NCBI RefSeq assembly: GCF_030646925.1
Contig: NZ_JAUSKL010000020.1
Coordinates: forward strand, 1 to 47,998
From: Candidatus Binatus sp.
GTDB lineage: Bacteria; Desulfobacterota; Binatia; Binatales; Binataceae
Length of the DNA stretch: 47,998 nt
Direction of reading: 5' to 3'
Shown here one piece after another: positions 34,180 through 40,687 of the stretch; position 1 is the first letter of the stretch, and each line of letters begins with the position of its first letter. The translations under genes were made by a program, and so were the position numbers. The notes beneath the pieces were generated by a model. That model was not told the DNA's origin and ran no database searches. It saw only the letters and a program-made list of their open reading frames with translations.

Positions 34180-35154
34180 TTAATTTCTCTCTACCGGATA
34201 GCCCGCCTTGTTCCAACTTTCCATCCCGCCGCGCAGCACGAATACGTCGTCGAAGCCCGCATCTGAAAGGAGTGCCGCCGCGCTCGCCGAGCGCTTCTCG
34301 GTCCGTCAGATGGTTATCATCGGCTTTCCGCGCAAGTCACTTAGGTCCGGAAGTCTCGCGGATAGTTCCGCGAGCGCAATGTTGCGTGCGCCCGCGATGT
34401 GGCCGAGCGGTCCTCGGAACTCTTCGGCGCTACGTACGTCTATCAGGGCCACGGCTTCGCCGTTCTGCAGCCGATGTCTAAGTGTTGGAGCGTCCGTGAA
34501 GCGCGGACCCTTGAGCTTACGAACCAGGCGTGGCAGGAAAGCGACGGTTGCGAGTAGCGCCAAGGCAAGCAGAGCCTTGTGGATTGCCCCGGCCTGCCCG
34601 GACGCGGCCTCACGCCCCGCGTAGCCCAGATAGGTATACGCGAGTGCACCCGGCATCATGCACGCGAAGGAGGCGAGCACGTACTCGCCAAGGCCGATTC
34701 GCGTCAGTCCGAAGGCGTAGTTCACAATATTGAACGGAAACAGCGGCACCAACCGGACGAACGCAACGAAGCGCCAGCCTTCCTCCTCCACCCCCCGCAT
34801 CAGCCGCGCCAGTCGTTCACCCGCGCGCATTGAAACCCAGTCGGAGGCGACGTATCGGGCGATCATGAAGGCTAGCGTGGCCCCCAAGGTCGCGCCGATG
34901 AGGTTCCATAGGGTTCCCGCTACCGGACCGAACAAAGCGCCGCCAGCCACGGTGAGCAGCGATCCGGGCACGAACAGCACTGTGGCCAAGGCATAGAGCA
35001 GAACGAACAAGATGGGAGCGAATCGACCGAAGCGCTGTAGTTCCCGCTCAAGCGTAGTGGCCTGGAGAAATTCGCGATGGAGGGCGAGCCACACAATCGC
35101 TGCGACCAGCGTTGCCACCAGAATCAGACGAATGATGAGACTACGCCTATTCAT
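34180..35154 (-). CDS. VTT (TVP38/DedA-like) membrane protein fused to a rhodanese domain; in-frame TGA at the catalytic Cys position (candidate selenoprotein)
   Basis: Residues 1-215 are a VTT/SNARE-associated-type membrane domain with hydrophobic segments near 8-26, 46-64, 84-100, 128-150, 158-176 and 192-208, and the conserved VPGSLLTVAGGALFG. A rhodanese domain follows: ALIDVRSAEEFRGPLGHIAG (236-254), KPMITI (277-282), then TGA at 34308-34306, then RTEKRSASAAALLSDAGF and VFVLRGGMESWNKAGYPVE to TAA at 34180. The TGA sits exactly at the catalytic Cys of the CRTxxRS loop, and conserved sequence continues in the same frame for 41 residues. The reading preferred is selenocysteine at residue 283 of 324. 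Otherwise it is a nonsense mutation or base error and the product stops at 282. It is coupled to the hydroxylase gene by an ATGA overlap. Confidence 0.85.
34280..34294 (-). promoter_or_regulatory. Candidate bacterial SECIS hairpin
   Basis: Eleven nt after the in-frame UGA (34308-34306) the mRNA has GCGCUC-GGC-GAGCGC, a perfect 6-bp stem with a 3-nt loop whose first base is G. In E. coli fdhF the upper SECIS stem also begins 11 nt after UGA and carries a G in the loop. A competing stem CCGAG/CUCGG overlaps it. Confidence 0.5.
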
Positions 35155-35978
35155 GCCGCGCGCCTCCAGGTGATCGCGTAAGCGCCCGCGGGGCCGCGGA
35201 AAGGTTGCAAGAGCATTCGGTCGAGCCACAGTTCGCGCGCCTCGCGGAACTGCTCGATACCGATGGTCATCCCGTCGTGGCCGGCGGCTGGCTGATCGCG
35301 ATAGGTCCCGAACAGTCGATCCCACCAAGGCAGGTTGAAGCCGAAGTTGCTGTTGGTTTCGTTAACCACGATCGAATGGTGGACGCGATGCATGTCGGGC
35401 GTAACCACGAGCCATCGAAGATAGCGATCGAGCCGGACCGGGATGAGAACGTTCCCGTGATTGAGCATCGAGGTTGCGTTTAGCAGGACCTCGAAGATGA
35501 GCACGCCGAGCGCCGGTGCTCCCAGCGCCACGACGACGCCGAACTTGATTAGCATCGACAGAACAATCTCGATTGGGTGGAAACGCGCGCCCGTCGTCAC
35601 ATCGAAGTCGAGGTCGGCGTGATGCATCCGATGCACCCGCCAAAGCGCGGGCACCGCGTGGAACATCACGTGCTGGAAGTAGATGGCGCCATCAAGCAGC
35701 ACCACCGACGCAACGACAGCCATCCAAGGCGGAATCGGCAGGTTGTTGAGCAAGCCCCAGCCGCGCCTTTCCCCTGCCAGCGCCAGACTAACGGCCGTGG
35801 CGGGAAGCAGGATTCTCACCAGCGCGCTATTCAGCGCAACGATACCTAAGTTGCTCGGCCAGCGCCTGAGCCTCGAATATGACCTTGTCCGGCGCGGCGC
35901 GCGCGCCTCCCACAGCGCCATTGCAGTGAACACTGTGATAAACGCTCCTAAGCGTATGGCAGCCTCGCGAGTCAGCAT
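35151..35978 (-). CDS. Fatty acid hydroxylase / sterol desaturase family membrane enzyme
   Basis: 275 residues with membrane segments near 8-24, 45-68, 84-103 and 144-172. The diiron histidine clusters of the superfamily are present: FQHVMFH (about 101-107), HRMHHAD (about 116-122), and HRVHH (about 195-199). Members hydroxylate or desaturate lipids and sterols using O2. The substrate is unknown. It starts 17 bp from the palindrome at 35996-36017 and its stop overlaps the next start (ATGA), so it is the first gene of an operon with the VTT-rhodanese protein. Confidence 0.87.
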   Translation of the reverse strand: MLTREAAIRLGAFITVFTAMALWEARAPRRTRSYSRLRRWPSNLGIVALNSALVRILLPATAVSLALAGERRGWGLLNNLPIPPWMAVVASVVLLDGAIYFQHVMFHAVPALWRVHRMHHADLDFDVTTGARFHPIEIVLSMLIKFGVVVALGAPALGVLIFEVLLNATSMLNHGNVLIPVRLDRYLRWLVVTPDMHRVHHSIVVNETNSNFGFNLPWWDRLFGTYRDQPAAGHDGMTIGIEQFREARELWLDRMLLQPFRGPAGAYAITWRRAA

Positions 35979-36039: not shown

Positions 36040-36714
36040 ATGTCAAGCCAGAATCCCAAACGTGCTATGTTCGAACAGTTCGCCGCCGTAGCCCGTACCC
36101 TCGGTTCCGCCCACCGCCTCGAGCTGCTCGAGCTGCTCGCGCAGACCGAGCGTAGCGTCGAGGAACTGGCCCGGCTGAGCGGCCTTACGATTGCCAACGC
36201 ATCACAGCATCTGCAGCAACTCCGCCGCTCTGGACTCGTCGAGGCACGCAGGGACGGGAAGCGGGTGCTCTACAGGCTCGCCGACGGCGACGTAGTCGCG
36301 CTGCTCGGCGCTCTGCGCCGAATCACTGAACGCAACGTCGGCGCTGTCGAAAAGGTGCTCAATGGTTACTTTCGAGAGCGCGACAACCTCGAACCCGTAT
36401 CGCGCAAGGAACTGTTGCGGCGCATGCGGGACGGGCTGGTTACAGTGATCGATACCCGCCCGGCAGAGGAGTTCGCCGCCGGTCACCTGCCCGGCGCGCT
36501 CAATGTGCCGCTCCGCGAACTCAAGCGCCGGTTACGGGAATTGCCCCGCGACCAGGTGATTGTTGCCTACTGTCGTGGAACATATTGCGTGCTCTCCTAC
36601 GAAGCGGTCGCCGAGCTGCGCAAGCGCGGCTTCACGGCCTTTCGGCTTGAAGAGGGATACCCCGAATGGAGGGCCGCCGGGCTACCGGTAGAGCGTCTGA
36701 CAGCAACCGCCTGA
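36040..36714 (+). CDS. ArsR-family transcription factor fused to a rhodanese domain
   Basis: 224 residues. The winged helix (about 10-100) contains RTLGSAHRLELLELLAQTE and LARLSGLTIANASQHLQQLR, then the wing RRDGKRVLYRL. It has no cysteine, so classical metal or thiol sensing in the DNA-binding domain is unlikely. The rhodanese domain (about 115-218) carries TVIDTRPAEEFAAGHLPGA and the active loop AYCRGTYC, with C178 and C183. The protein could sense sulfane sulfur, persulfide or a related oxidant through those cysteines. It likely represses itself and the divergent hydroxylase/VTT-rhodanese operon through the palindrome between them. Confidence 0.9.
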   Translation: MSSQNPKRAMFEQFAAVARTLGSAHRLELLELLAQTERSVEELARLSGLTIANASQHLQQLRRSGLVEARRDGKRVLYRLADGDVVALLGALRRITERNVGAVEKVLNGYFRERDNLEPVSRKELLRRMRDGLVTVIDTRPAEEFAAGHLPGALNVPLRELKRRLRELPRDQVIVAYCRGTYCVLSYEAVAELRKRGFTAFRLEEGYPEWRAAGLPVERLTATA

Positions 36715-39592: not shown

Positions 39593-40687
39593 TCAATGTG
39601 ATTGTGAAGGCTGAATGGTCCGCTGGACTATGAACGCCGCTCTTTCGTACAGTTCATCAAAAGTAAGAATTTCAGGATTTGTAAGGTTTCTGCGAAACAA
39701 TTCAAATGACTGAATACGCGCGCGGTCGTCTTTCAATTGTTTCAGGTTTCCAACGACAAGTATCCCCTTAGGCTGGATCGTAAATGCTTCCTTCAGCGCA
39801 TCACGATTCCCGGCGCTATCTGAACTCTCTTGCCACTGACGGCAAGCCGTCTGCACTTGGGCTGCTCCCCCCGCTACGTCATCACCTGGAGGATAGACTC
39901 CGTTCCGATATTCCTTGGGCCGCACGAGCGGAGACTGCGGACGCTTGATTTCCACAAGAACCGTGAATTTCACTTGAGCTTCGGAGAGGCCCATAAAATC
40001 CCCTAGTTTGCCTCCGCGCCCGCTTATGGTTGTGCCACCCAGATGTGGCTTCGACTGAGATAGGCTTATAAATCGGTAACTGAGACCGTAGCCAAAGATC
40101 CAAGTATTTTTCTGAAAAAAATGCTGCCACCATTCCTCTTGCTCTTCGCGGTCGAGATGCGCTTTGAACTCGGCCAGAGCTGCGGCACGTTCCTCTTGGA
40201 GTTTTGCATAAGACAGCTTAAGTAGGATGCCTGGACGCGCATTCTCTAAATCGTGCCACAGTTCGTCCGGCGATTCTGCCAGTTCGCGCAAGGTAGCAAT
40301 TCTTTCCTTTTTCGCTTGTACGATCTCATTTGCACTGGCAACTACTAAGGTCCTTTTGCCAGGGGTTATGCCTGCTTGTCGTTTCGCCGCATACAACTGA
40401 GAGAGATGATGAAACAGGTTCAGGGTCCGCGCCGAGTCAAGCGTGAACCGGGCGACCCCTCCTGCCTTGAGCCTGCTCAGCGATTCGGATGGCAGATTTT
40501 CCCATTTCTCCCCGGCCCGTTTCCTCCTATGGAATAAATGAACCTTGATGCAGGCATTCGAGTCGTGTGGATTGTTCACTTCCTCAGCGAATAAACTGGT
40601 TCGCGTGTGGACTTTAGAACCAAGCACGACCTCATCGACGACCGCCGAATTCGGAGATGTACTTTGAATGTTGTATTTATCAGCCAT
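39593..40687 (-). CDS. sduA: Shedu-type (SduA, DUF4263) anti-phage nuclease
   Basis: 364 residues. The C-terminal domain has the DUF4263 layout: WWQHFFQKNTWIFGYGLSYR (about 186-205), then a PD-(D/E)xK nuclease core with D230 (GGKLGDFMG) and E246-x-K248 (VLVEIKRPQ), followed by a helix with Q277 (AAQVQT). The N-terminal half (about 1-180) is variable across Shedu proteins and probably controls activation. Shedu is a single-gene phage-defence nuclease. It is divergent from a broken DUF4238 gene, with a 70-bp AT-rich gap. The base composition is lower in GC than its neighbours, consistent with transfer. Confidence 0.85.
   Translation of the reverse strand: MADKYNIQSTSPNSAVVDEVVLGSKVHTRTSLFAEEVNNPHDSNACIKVHLFHRRKRAGEKWENLPSESLSRLKAGGVARFTLDSARTLNLFHHLSQLYAAKRQAGITPGKRTLVVASANEIVQAKKERIATLRELAESPDELWHDLENARPGILLKLSYAKLQEERAAALAEFKAHLDREEQEEWWQHFFQKNTWIFGYGLSYRFISLSQSKPHLGGTTISGRGGKLGDFMGLSEAQVKFTVLVEIKRPQSPLVRPKEYRNGVYPPGDDVAGGAAQVQTACRQWQESSDSAGNRDALKEAFTIQPKGILVVGNLKQLKDDRARIQSFELFRRNLTNPEILTFDELYERAAFIVQRTIQPSQSH

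Follow-up and report, generated by a model that had tools for sequence, protein, structure and literature searches.

The window analyzed here is a stretch of 47,998 nucleotides from one contig (NZ_JAUSKL010000020.1) of a draft genome of Candidatus Binatus sp. On its minus strand lies a gene whose frame joins a VTT membrane domain to a rhodanese domain, with a single in-frame TGA codon falling inside the latter (Table 1). A standard reading frame call ends the gene at this UGA, and 41 residues of the same frame lie downstream of it. The gene immediately upstream encodes a fatty acid hydroxylase whose own TGA stop overlaps the start codon of the VTT-rhodanese gene (ATGA), and beyond it a regulator that also carries a rhodanese domain is transcribed in the opposite direction. 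Elsewhere in the window, at 39593-40687 (-), is a gene for the Shedu defence protein SduA (Pfam SduA_C, E 3e-27; SduA_N, E 8e-17). No Rfam family matches anywhere in the window at gathering scores.

Table 1. Features of the VTT-rhodanese locus, in positions of the window
Feature	Position	Strand	Details
Predicted VTT-rhodanese selenoprotein gene	34180..35154	(-)	324 residues, Sec at 283; ATG at 35154, TAA end at 34180
In-frame TGA, predicted to be read as selenocysteine	34306..34308	(-)	Residue 283; catalytic position of the rhodanese loop
VTT membrane domain	34621..34971	(-)	Residues 62-178; Pfam
Rhodanese domain	34207..34482	(-)	Residues 225-316; Pfam
SECIS-like hairpin	34280..34294	(-)	Arms GCGCTC (34294-34289) and GAGCGC (34285-34280); loop GGC (34288-34286)
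Fatty acid hydroxylase (sterol desaturase family), OlsE-like	35151..35978	(-)	PF04116, 93 bits
Divergent regulator, ArsR/SmtB helix-turn-helix plus rhodanese domain	36040..36714	(+)	Cys-bearing loop YCRGTYC

The first-pass annotation had placed the TGA at the catalytic Cys position of a rhodanese loop and had noted that the rhodanese frame continues beyond it to the TAA. Both observations are borne out, the former by the span of the Pfam match and by alignment with solved structures. The rhodanese match (PF00581) scores 68.2 bits against a Pfam cut-off of 22.2 (E 1e-18). In the alignment, residue 283 corresponds to a Cys of 5ve3, a persulfide dioxygenase-rhodanese, and to a Ser of its mutant 5ve4, the title of which states that mutation at C314 inactivates the rhodanese domain. 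In an AlphaFold model of the protein (mean pLDDT 81, pTM 0.59), residue 283 sits directly after a strand (residues 279-282) and ahead of a helix (residues 286-298). The pLDDT value is approximately 90 in most blocks of the rhodanese domain and 55-70 for residues 101-160 of the membrane domain. With a catalytic residue in the active-site loop and PF00581 above its cut-off, this part of the protein belongs to the rhodanese superfamily.

The membrane part likewise belongs to the VTT/DedA superfamily, as its match to PF09335 scores 95.1 bits against a Pfam cut-off of 33.9 (E 5e-27). As for subfamily, the product names of the 30 plasmid relatives listed, out of 276 records, are TVP38/TMEM64 in 16 cases and VTT in 5. 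The stretch that follows the last hydrophobic helix (residues 208-225) is rich in Lys and Arg, with five K/R versus one D/E, which suggests that the rhodanese domain faces the cytoplasm.

Homologues of the gene carry either Cys or TGA at the catalytic column. We fetched 158 loci and kept 102 (score >= 600), of which 96 align over the column and six do not. Seven of the 96 (L077-L081, L086, and L088) were dropped as repeats of loci from the same genomes, recognized by identical scores and, in four cases, by contigs of identical length, leaving 89 loci for the codon count and the tree. A Chelativorans plasmid match covering residues 165-322 only, in two pieces and without an annotated gene, was dropped as well. 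Both of the forms that had been anticipated at this column were found, with 9 of the 89 loci carrying TGA, 80 carrying TGC or TGT, and none carrying any other codon. Cys at the TGA column in homologues is one of the marks by which bacterial selenoproteins are recognized. Each of the nine TGA genes is from a different genome, and these genomes belong to three families within a single class; the contig scan retained the 80 best of 576 confirmed stretches, so that the Sec form is spread at least this widely. None of the nine has a further stop in its aligned frame, and the three residues that follow the TGA are RTE, RTQ, RTA, RTD, RTK, NKE, or NTE. The same TGA in eight other genomes argues strongly against a sequencing or assembly error that turned TGC or TGT into TGA in the window's contig. 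Such an error is hardly conceivable, even in a draft of 126 contigs.

Some relatives differ from the window's gene in their architecture or number. One gene of the TGA form (L061, genome G050) has lost approximately 60 rhodanese residues in frame and has kept the Sec codon, the hairpin arms, and the C-terminus. Four genes from the same bacterial family (L063-L066, 64-68% identical) have a TGA stop soon after residue 215 and thus encode a VTT domain without rhodanese. In genome G048 the VTT-rhodanese gene is present twice (L060 and L068), both times at full length and with Cys, and these copies are 67% and 55% identical to that of the window.

A maximum-likelihood tree of the 89 rows, two of which are identical, requires two changes between Cys and Sec, and well-supported branches force this number. 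Of the nine Sec genes, six make up a clade (99/98) that is nested among Cys relatives from their own family. The remaining three form a second clade, beside three Burkholderiales Cys proteins, in which the branch joining L015 to L069 and L070 is weaker (96/52). The direction of change between Cys and Sec is not fixed by this tree, because its root is a midpoint root.

The codons that follow the TGA also bear the imprint of selection on the protein. Over the 15 pairs of TGA genes from the window's family (six genes), dN is 0.08-0.29 and dS 0.43-2.02 in the 39 codons that follow the TGA. With dN well under dS, these codons are under purifying selection. Upstream dN/dS values for pairs with L010 are ignored because an indel spoils them. 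Where two genes encode the same residue, they use the same codon in 65 of 76 comparisons within the hairpin versus 158 of 313 elsewhere after the TGA; in an upstream stretch of four of the six genes, the count is 540 of 983. When six-codon windows are ranked over these four genes, that of the hairpin comes fourth of 263.

The window's genome (4.58 Mb in 126 contigs, 98% complete and 3.5% contaminated) encodes the apparatus for selenocysteine insertion. Its selA gene scores 580 bits (cut-off 268), selB scores 334 bits, or 365 with a second piece (cut-off 242), selD scores 383 bits (cut-off 125), and tRNA-Sec scores 74 bits (cut-off 47), with the anticodon TCA as read by ARAGORN. Absence of this machinery had been named beforehand as grounds for abandoning the reading; it was looked for, and selA, selB, selD, and tRNA-Sec are all present, as in bacteria that make selenoproteins. 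A second match to RF01852, just above the cut-off, is a tRNA-Ser. The selD gene of the same genome (L055, around 1501-2427) has its own in-frame TGA near the start of the matched stretch, in the context AAG-TGA-AGK, which we take to be the catalytic Cys/Sec position of that protein. The window's contig and the sel genes are on different contigs of the draft, and relatives show the same pairing. Indeed, selA and selB are found in 9 of 9 TGA genomes and tRNA-Sec in 8 of 9, the one miss being a genome that is 74% complete. However, selA is also present in 123 of 148 genomes of the class, including Cys-form genomes such as G010 and G021. The machinery is therefore necessary and not specific, and its presence agrees with Sec without proving it alone.

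Further evidence comes from a hairpin just downstream of the TGA, whose loop in the window's gene is separated from the TGA by 17 nt. The rules for bacterial SECIS elements, as set out in the available part of a recent review (PMC13188914), specify a loop of 3-9 nt with G in the first two positions, a stem of 4-16 bp, a spacing of 16-37 nt, and an energy of at most -7.5. These rules are passed by 9 of 9 TGA genes, with the window's gene at -8.3, versus 6 of 80 Cys genes. The 5′ arm lies over the same Arg-Ser codons in eight of the nine, and the stem hardly varies within the six-gene clade. Loops include GTC in L059 and GGT in L061, the latter a gene in which another, longer hairpin scored better in scans. 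L069 and L070 have the hairpin CCGCTC-GGTCA-GAGCGG, and that of L015 is shifted (CTCCGCC-CGGGC-GGCGGAG). The selD gene of the window's genome carries a comparable element after its TGA (GGTCC-GGC-GGACC), with the same GGC loop and the same distance of 17 nt. Considered by itself, this stem has little strength (-5.8) and would fall short of the -7.5 rule.

Synonymous recoding (500 recodings for each gene) likewise separates the two forms. The TGA genes have a median p of 0.038 (range 0.010-0.114), with six of nine at or below 0.05, and the Cys genes have a median p of 1.0, with 4 of 80 at or below 0.05. The window's own gene (p 0.096) is among the three TGA genes that singly miss 0.05. Compared as groups, TGA and Cys genes differ by a Mann-Whitney test (p 1.3e-7) that treats the genes as independent despite their relatedness. 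Furthermore, the eighth residue after the site is Ser (6) or Arg (3) in the TGA genes and Lys in 50 of the 80 Cys genes, among which Ser and Arg occur four times each. To judge from the sequences, it is as if this residue in the TGA genes were dictated by the RNA stem.

Given the frame and its domains, the exchange of Cys and TGA, the machinery, the hairpins, and the selection after the TGA, we conclude that the UGA at residue 283 is almost certainly read as Sec and that the gene most probably encodes a true bacterial selenoprotein. The selenocysteine proposed by the first-pass annotation is thereby supported. If the TGA were instead a real stop, the product would be a VTT protein of 282 residues followed by a decayed rhodanese tail, or pseudogenised C-terminus. 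The VTT-only relatives that end at TGA (L063-L066) indicate that the membrane part can stand alone, and the shortened rhodanese domain of L061 could also be seen as a sign of decay. Nevertheless, decay would have to accommodate a TGA at the identical codon in nine genes on two branches of the tree with no other stop in the aligned frame, purifying selection on what follows, the Sec machinery, and the hairpins, and we regard it as very improbable. The recurrence of the TGA, the selection after it, and the machinery lead us to reject both this truncation and an assembly error. An altered genetic code in which TGA specifies Trp or Gly was also considered and rejected, since the neighbouring hydroxylase gene uses TGA as its stop and the genome has a normal Sec system.

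The two genes beside the selenoprotein candidate recur with its homologues. The best NCBIfam model for the hydroxylase is the ornithine lipid hydroxylase OlsE (87 bits, below the cut-off of 475). The regulator scores above the cut-off of the general ArsR/SmtB model, and its resemblance to BigR and TsoR falls short of theirs. With repeats dropped, 8 of 9 TGA loci and 73 of 80 Cys loci have the hydroxylase upstream, and an ArsR-type match is found in 7 of 9 and 58 of 80, extending into the rhodanese part in 7 and 53, respectively; these are lower bounds, as contig ends cut the flanks. Counted with the repeats, the hydroxylase is present at 11 of 12 and 77 of 84 loci and the ArsR type at 10 of 12 and 60 of 84. 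The ArsR-type gene is divergent in 5 of 7 TGA loci and 56 of 58 Cys loci, and on the same strand in L069, L070, L125, and L133. Neither neighbour is found in the 1.5 kb of upstream DNA of L015, and no ArsR-type regulator in the 1.3 kb of L061.

The same three-gene set is annotated on a Roseibium plasmid. Its VTT protein (WP_208992489.1) is 60.5% identical to that of the window over residues 71-321, and the order of genes, with a sterol desaturase and a divergent ArsR, is also the same, whereas the catalytic codon is TGC (Cys) rather than TGA. Homologous ArsR-rhodanese regulators on four other plasmids have varied neighbours, and on one of these plasmids the regulator is beside DsrE, a metallo-hydrolase, and a cysteine desulfurase. 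On another of the four, from Methylobacterium (L160 5001-7071), the genes near the ArsR-type regulator include those for MerT, a mercuric transporter, and for a GDCCVxC (seleno)protein.

Rhodanese selenoproteins as such are established, and the available part of the 2026 review lists five forms, with the motifs UxxS, UxxG, CxU, UxxG, and UxxxxU (PMC13188914). The protein described here shares with them a rhodanese domain with Sec, but none of the nine TGA genes has G or S at +3, C at -2, or a second U at +5, and here the rhodanese is fused behind a VTT membrane domain. Two NCBIfam models of related proteins align with the rhodanese part alone and fall far below their cut-offs, namely NF041203 (rhodanese-related (seleno)protein, 48 bits versus 115) and NF045694 (TsoB rhodanese/DsbD fusion-like selenoprotein, 19 bits versus 805). 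By these motifs, as the available text of the review gives them, and by these cut-offs, the protein lies outside the catalogued forms. The terms DedA, VTT, SNARE, and sterol desaturase do not occur in the same portion of the review, and the rhodanese selenoproteins listed in the accessible parts of a 2022 review (PMC9312934) and a 2008 ocean survey include none fused to VTT. The best match of the rhodanese domain in both sequence and fold is BpPRF, a persulfide dioxygenase-rhodanese fusion (5ve3/5ve4/5ve5) whose Cys aligns with Sec283. BpPRF is a cysteine enzyme, however, and its rhodanese is joined to a dioxygenase rather than to a membrane domain.

The first-pass annotation knew of no description of a membrane-tethered seleno-sulfurtransferase. 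This holds for the Sec form, for which we found no report in the open literature, a source that cannot show it to be wholly unreported. Cys fusions of DedA and rhodanese have been published. Fusions of COG0586 DedA proteins to PF00581 are noted in the available portion of one paper, which calls the link to undecaprenyl phosphate unclear (PMC10127716), and PA1209 of P. aeruginosa is given in an excerpt of another as a DedA protein with a C-terminal rhodanese domain (PMC12893004). These share with our protein the PF09335/DedA membrane domain and the rhodanese. They are presented as DedA proteins, without mention of Sec in the parts of the two papers at hand, whereas the plasmid relatives listed for the window's protein are mostly named TVP38/TMEM64. 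Searches that paired a VTT domain with rhodanese, alone or together with selenoprotein, returned no literature, nor did those for rhodanese with the ArsR family and sterol desaturase or for ArsR with a rhodanese domain and persulfide. A search for ornithine lipid with rhodanese gave a single paper, which led no further. Broader searches, such as selenocysteine with DedA, gave no such protein by title among the matches listed, and the two listed papers holding both selenoprotein and the DedA family describe no DedA selenoprotein in their accessible text.

It seems reasonable to speculate on how such a protein might work. Sec would be inserted at the UGA by SelB with the aid of the SECIS hairpin just downstream, yielding a protein with an integral VTT membrane domain and, after it, a rhodanese domain that faces the cytoplasm and has Sec283 as its nucleophile. 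The selenolate would most likely attack a sulfane-sulfur donor, either a persulfide or thiosulfate, and form a Se-bound persulfide, the sulfur of which may then be passed on or reduced at the membrane. The VTT-rhodanese protein probably works in a set with the OlsE-like lipid hydroxylase, under the ArsR-rhodanese regulator, which may itself sense reactive sulfur. In this scheme we infer the topology, the sulfur donor, the acceptor, the regulation, and the link to lipids.

The selenoprotein could also use its Sec for redox defence, by reduction of peroxide or persulfide, rather than for sulfur transfer to an acceptor. This is a real possibility that falls somewhat short of probable. In its favour, persulfide dioxygenase-rhodanese fusions are the nearest matches among solved structures, and the available part of the 2022 review (PMC9312934) assigns nearly all selenoproteins whose function is known to antioxidant defence. 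The ArsR half of the regulator also resembles, below its cut-off, the sulfite-sensing repressor BigR. However, there is no partner reductase among the annotated immediate neighbours. A weaker rival holds that the membrane domain of the selenoprotein handles selenium, as selenite, or other oxyanions rather than moving lipids. According to the excerpted text of a review (PMC11422209), mutants of Ralstonia metallidurans suggest that DedA takes part in selenite uptake, although the paper cited there concerns, by its title, another DedA protein. Because 80 of the 89 homologues carry Cys with the same neighbours, the gene set is not specific to selenium, and we consider this rival improbable.

Returning to sulfur transfer by the Sec-bearing rhodanese, the hydroxylase and the VTT domain suggest, rather tentatively, that this transfer is tied to membrane lipids. 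Perhaps the three genes form a membrane-lipid cassette responsive to reactive sulfur, composed of an ArsR-rhodanese sensor, an OlsE-like hydroxylase, and a VTT translocator with its own sulfur-transfer domain, in which Cys and Sec were exchanged (Cys to Sec) on two branches within one class, coupling sulfur and selenium chemistry to lipid movement. The varied neighbours of related regulators on the four plasmids, and the lack of both neighbours in L015, count against a link to lipids. This proposal is speculative, and we hold it to be no more than a doubtful possibility at this time.

With its UGA read as Sec, the gene adds an integral-membrane rhodanese to the bacterial selenoproteome. In this family, a presumed lipid translocator bears a domain for sulfur transfer, a connection that the DedA literature calls unclear, at least in the part of PMC10127716 available. 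The nested Cys and Sec forms within the one family, with their recurrent neighbourhood, provide natural pairs for learning what selenium adds to persulfide chemistry.
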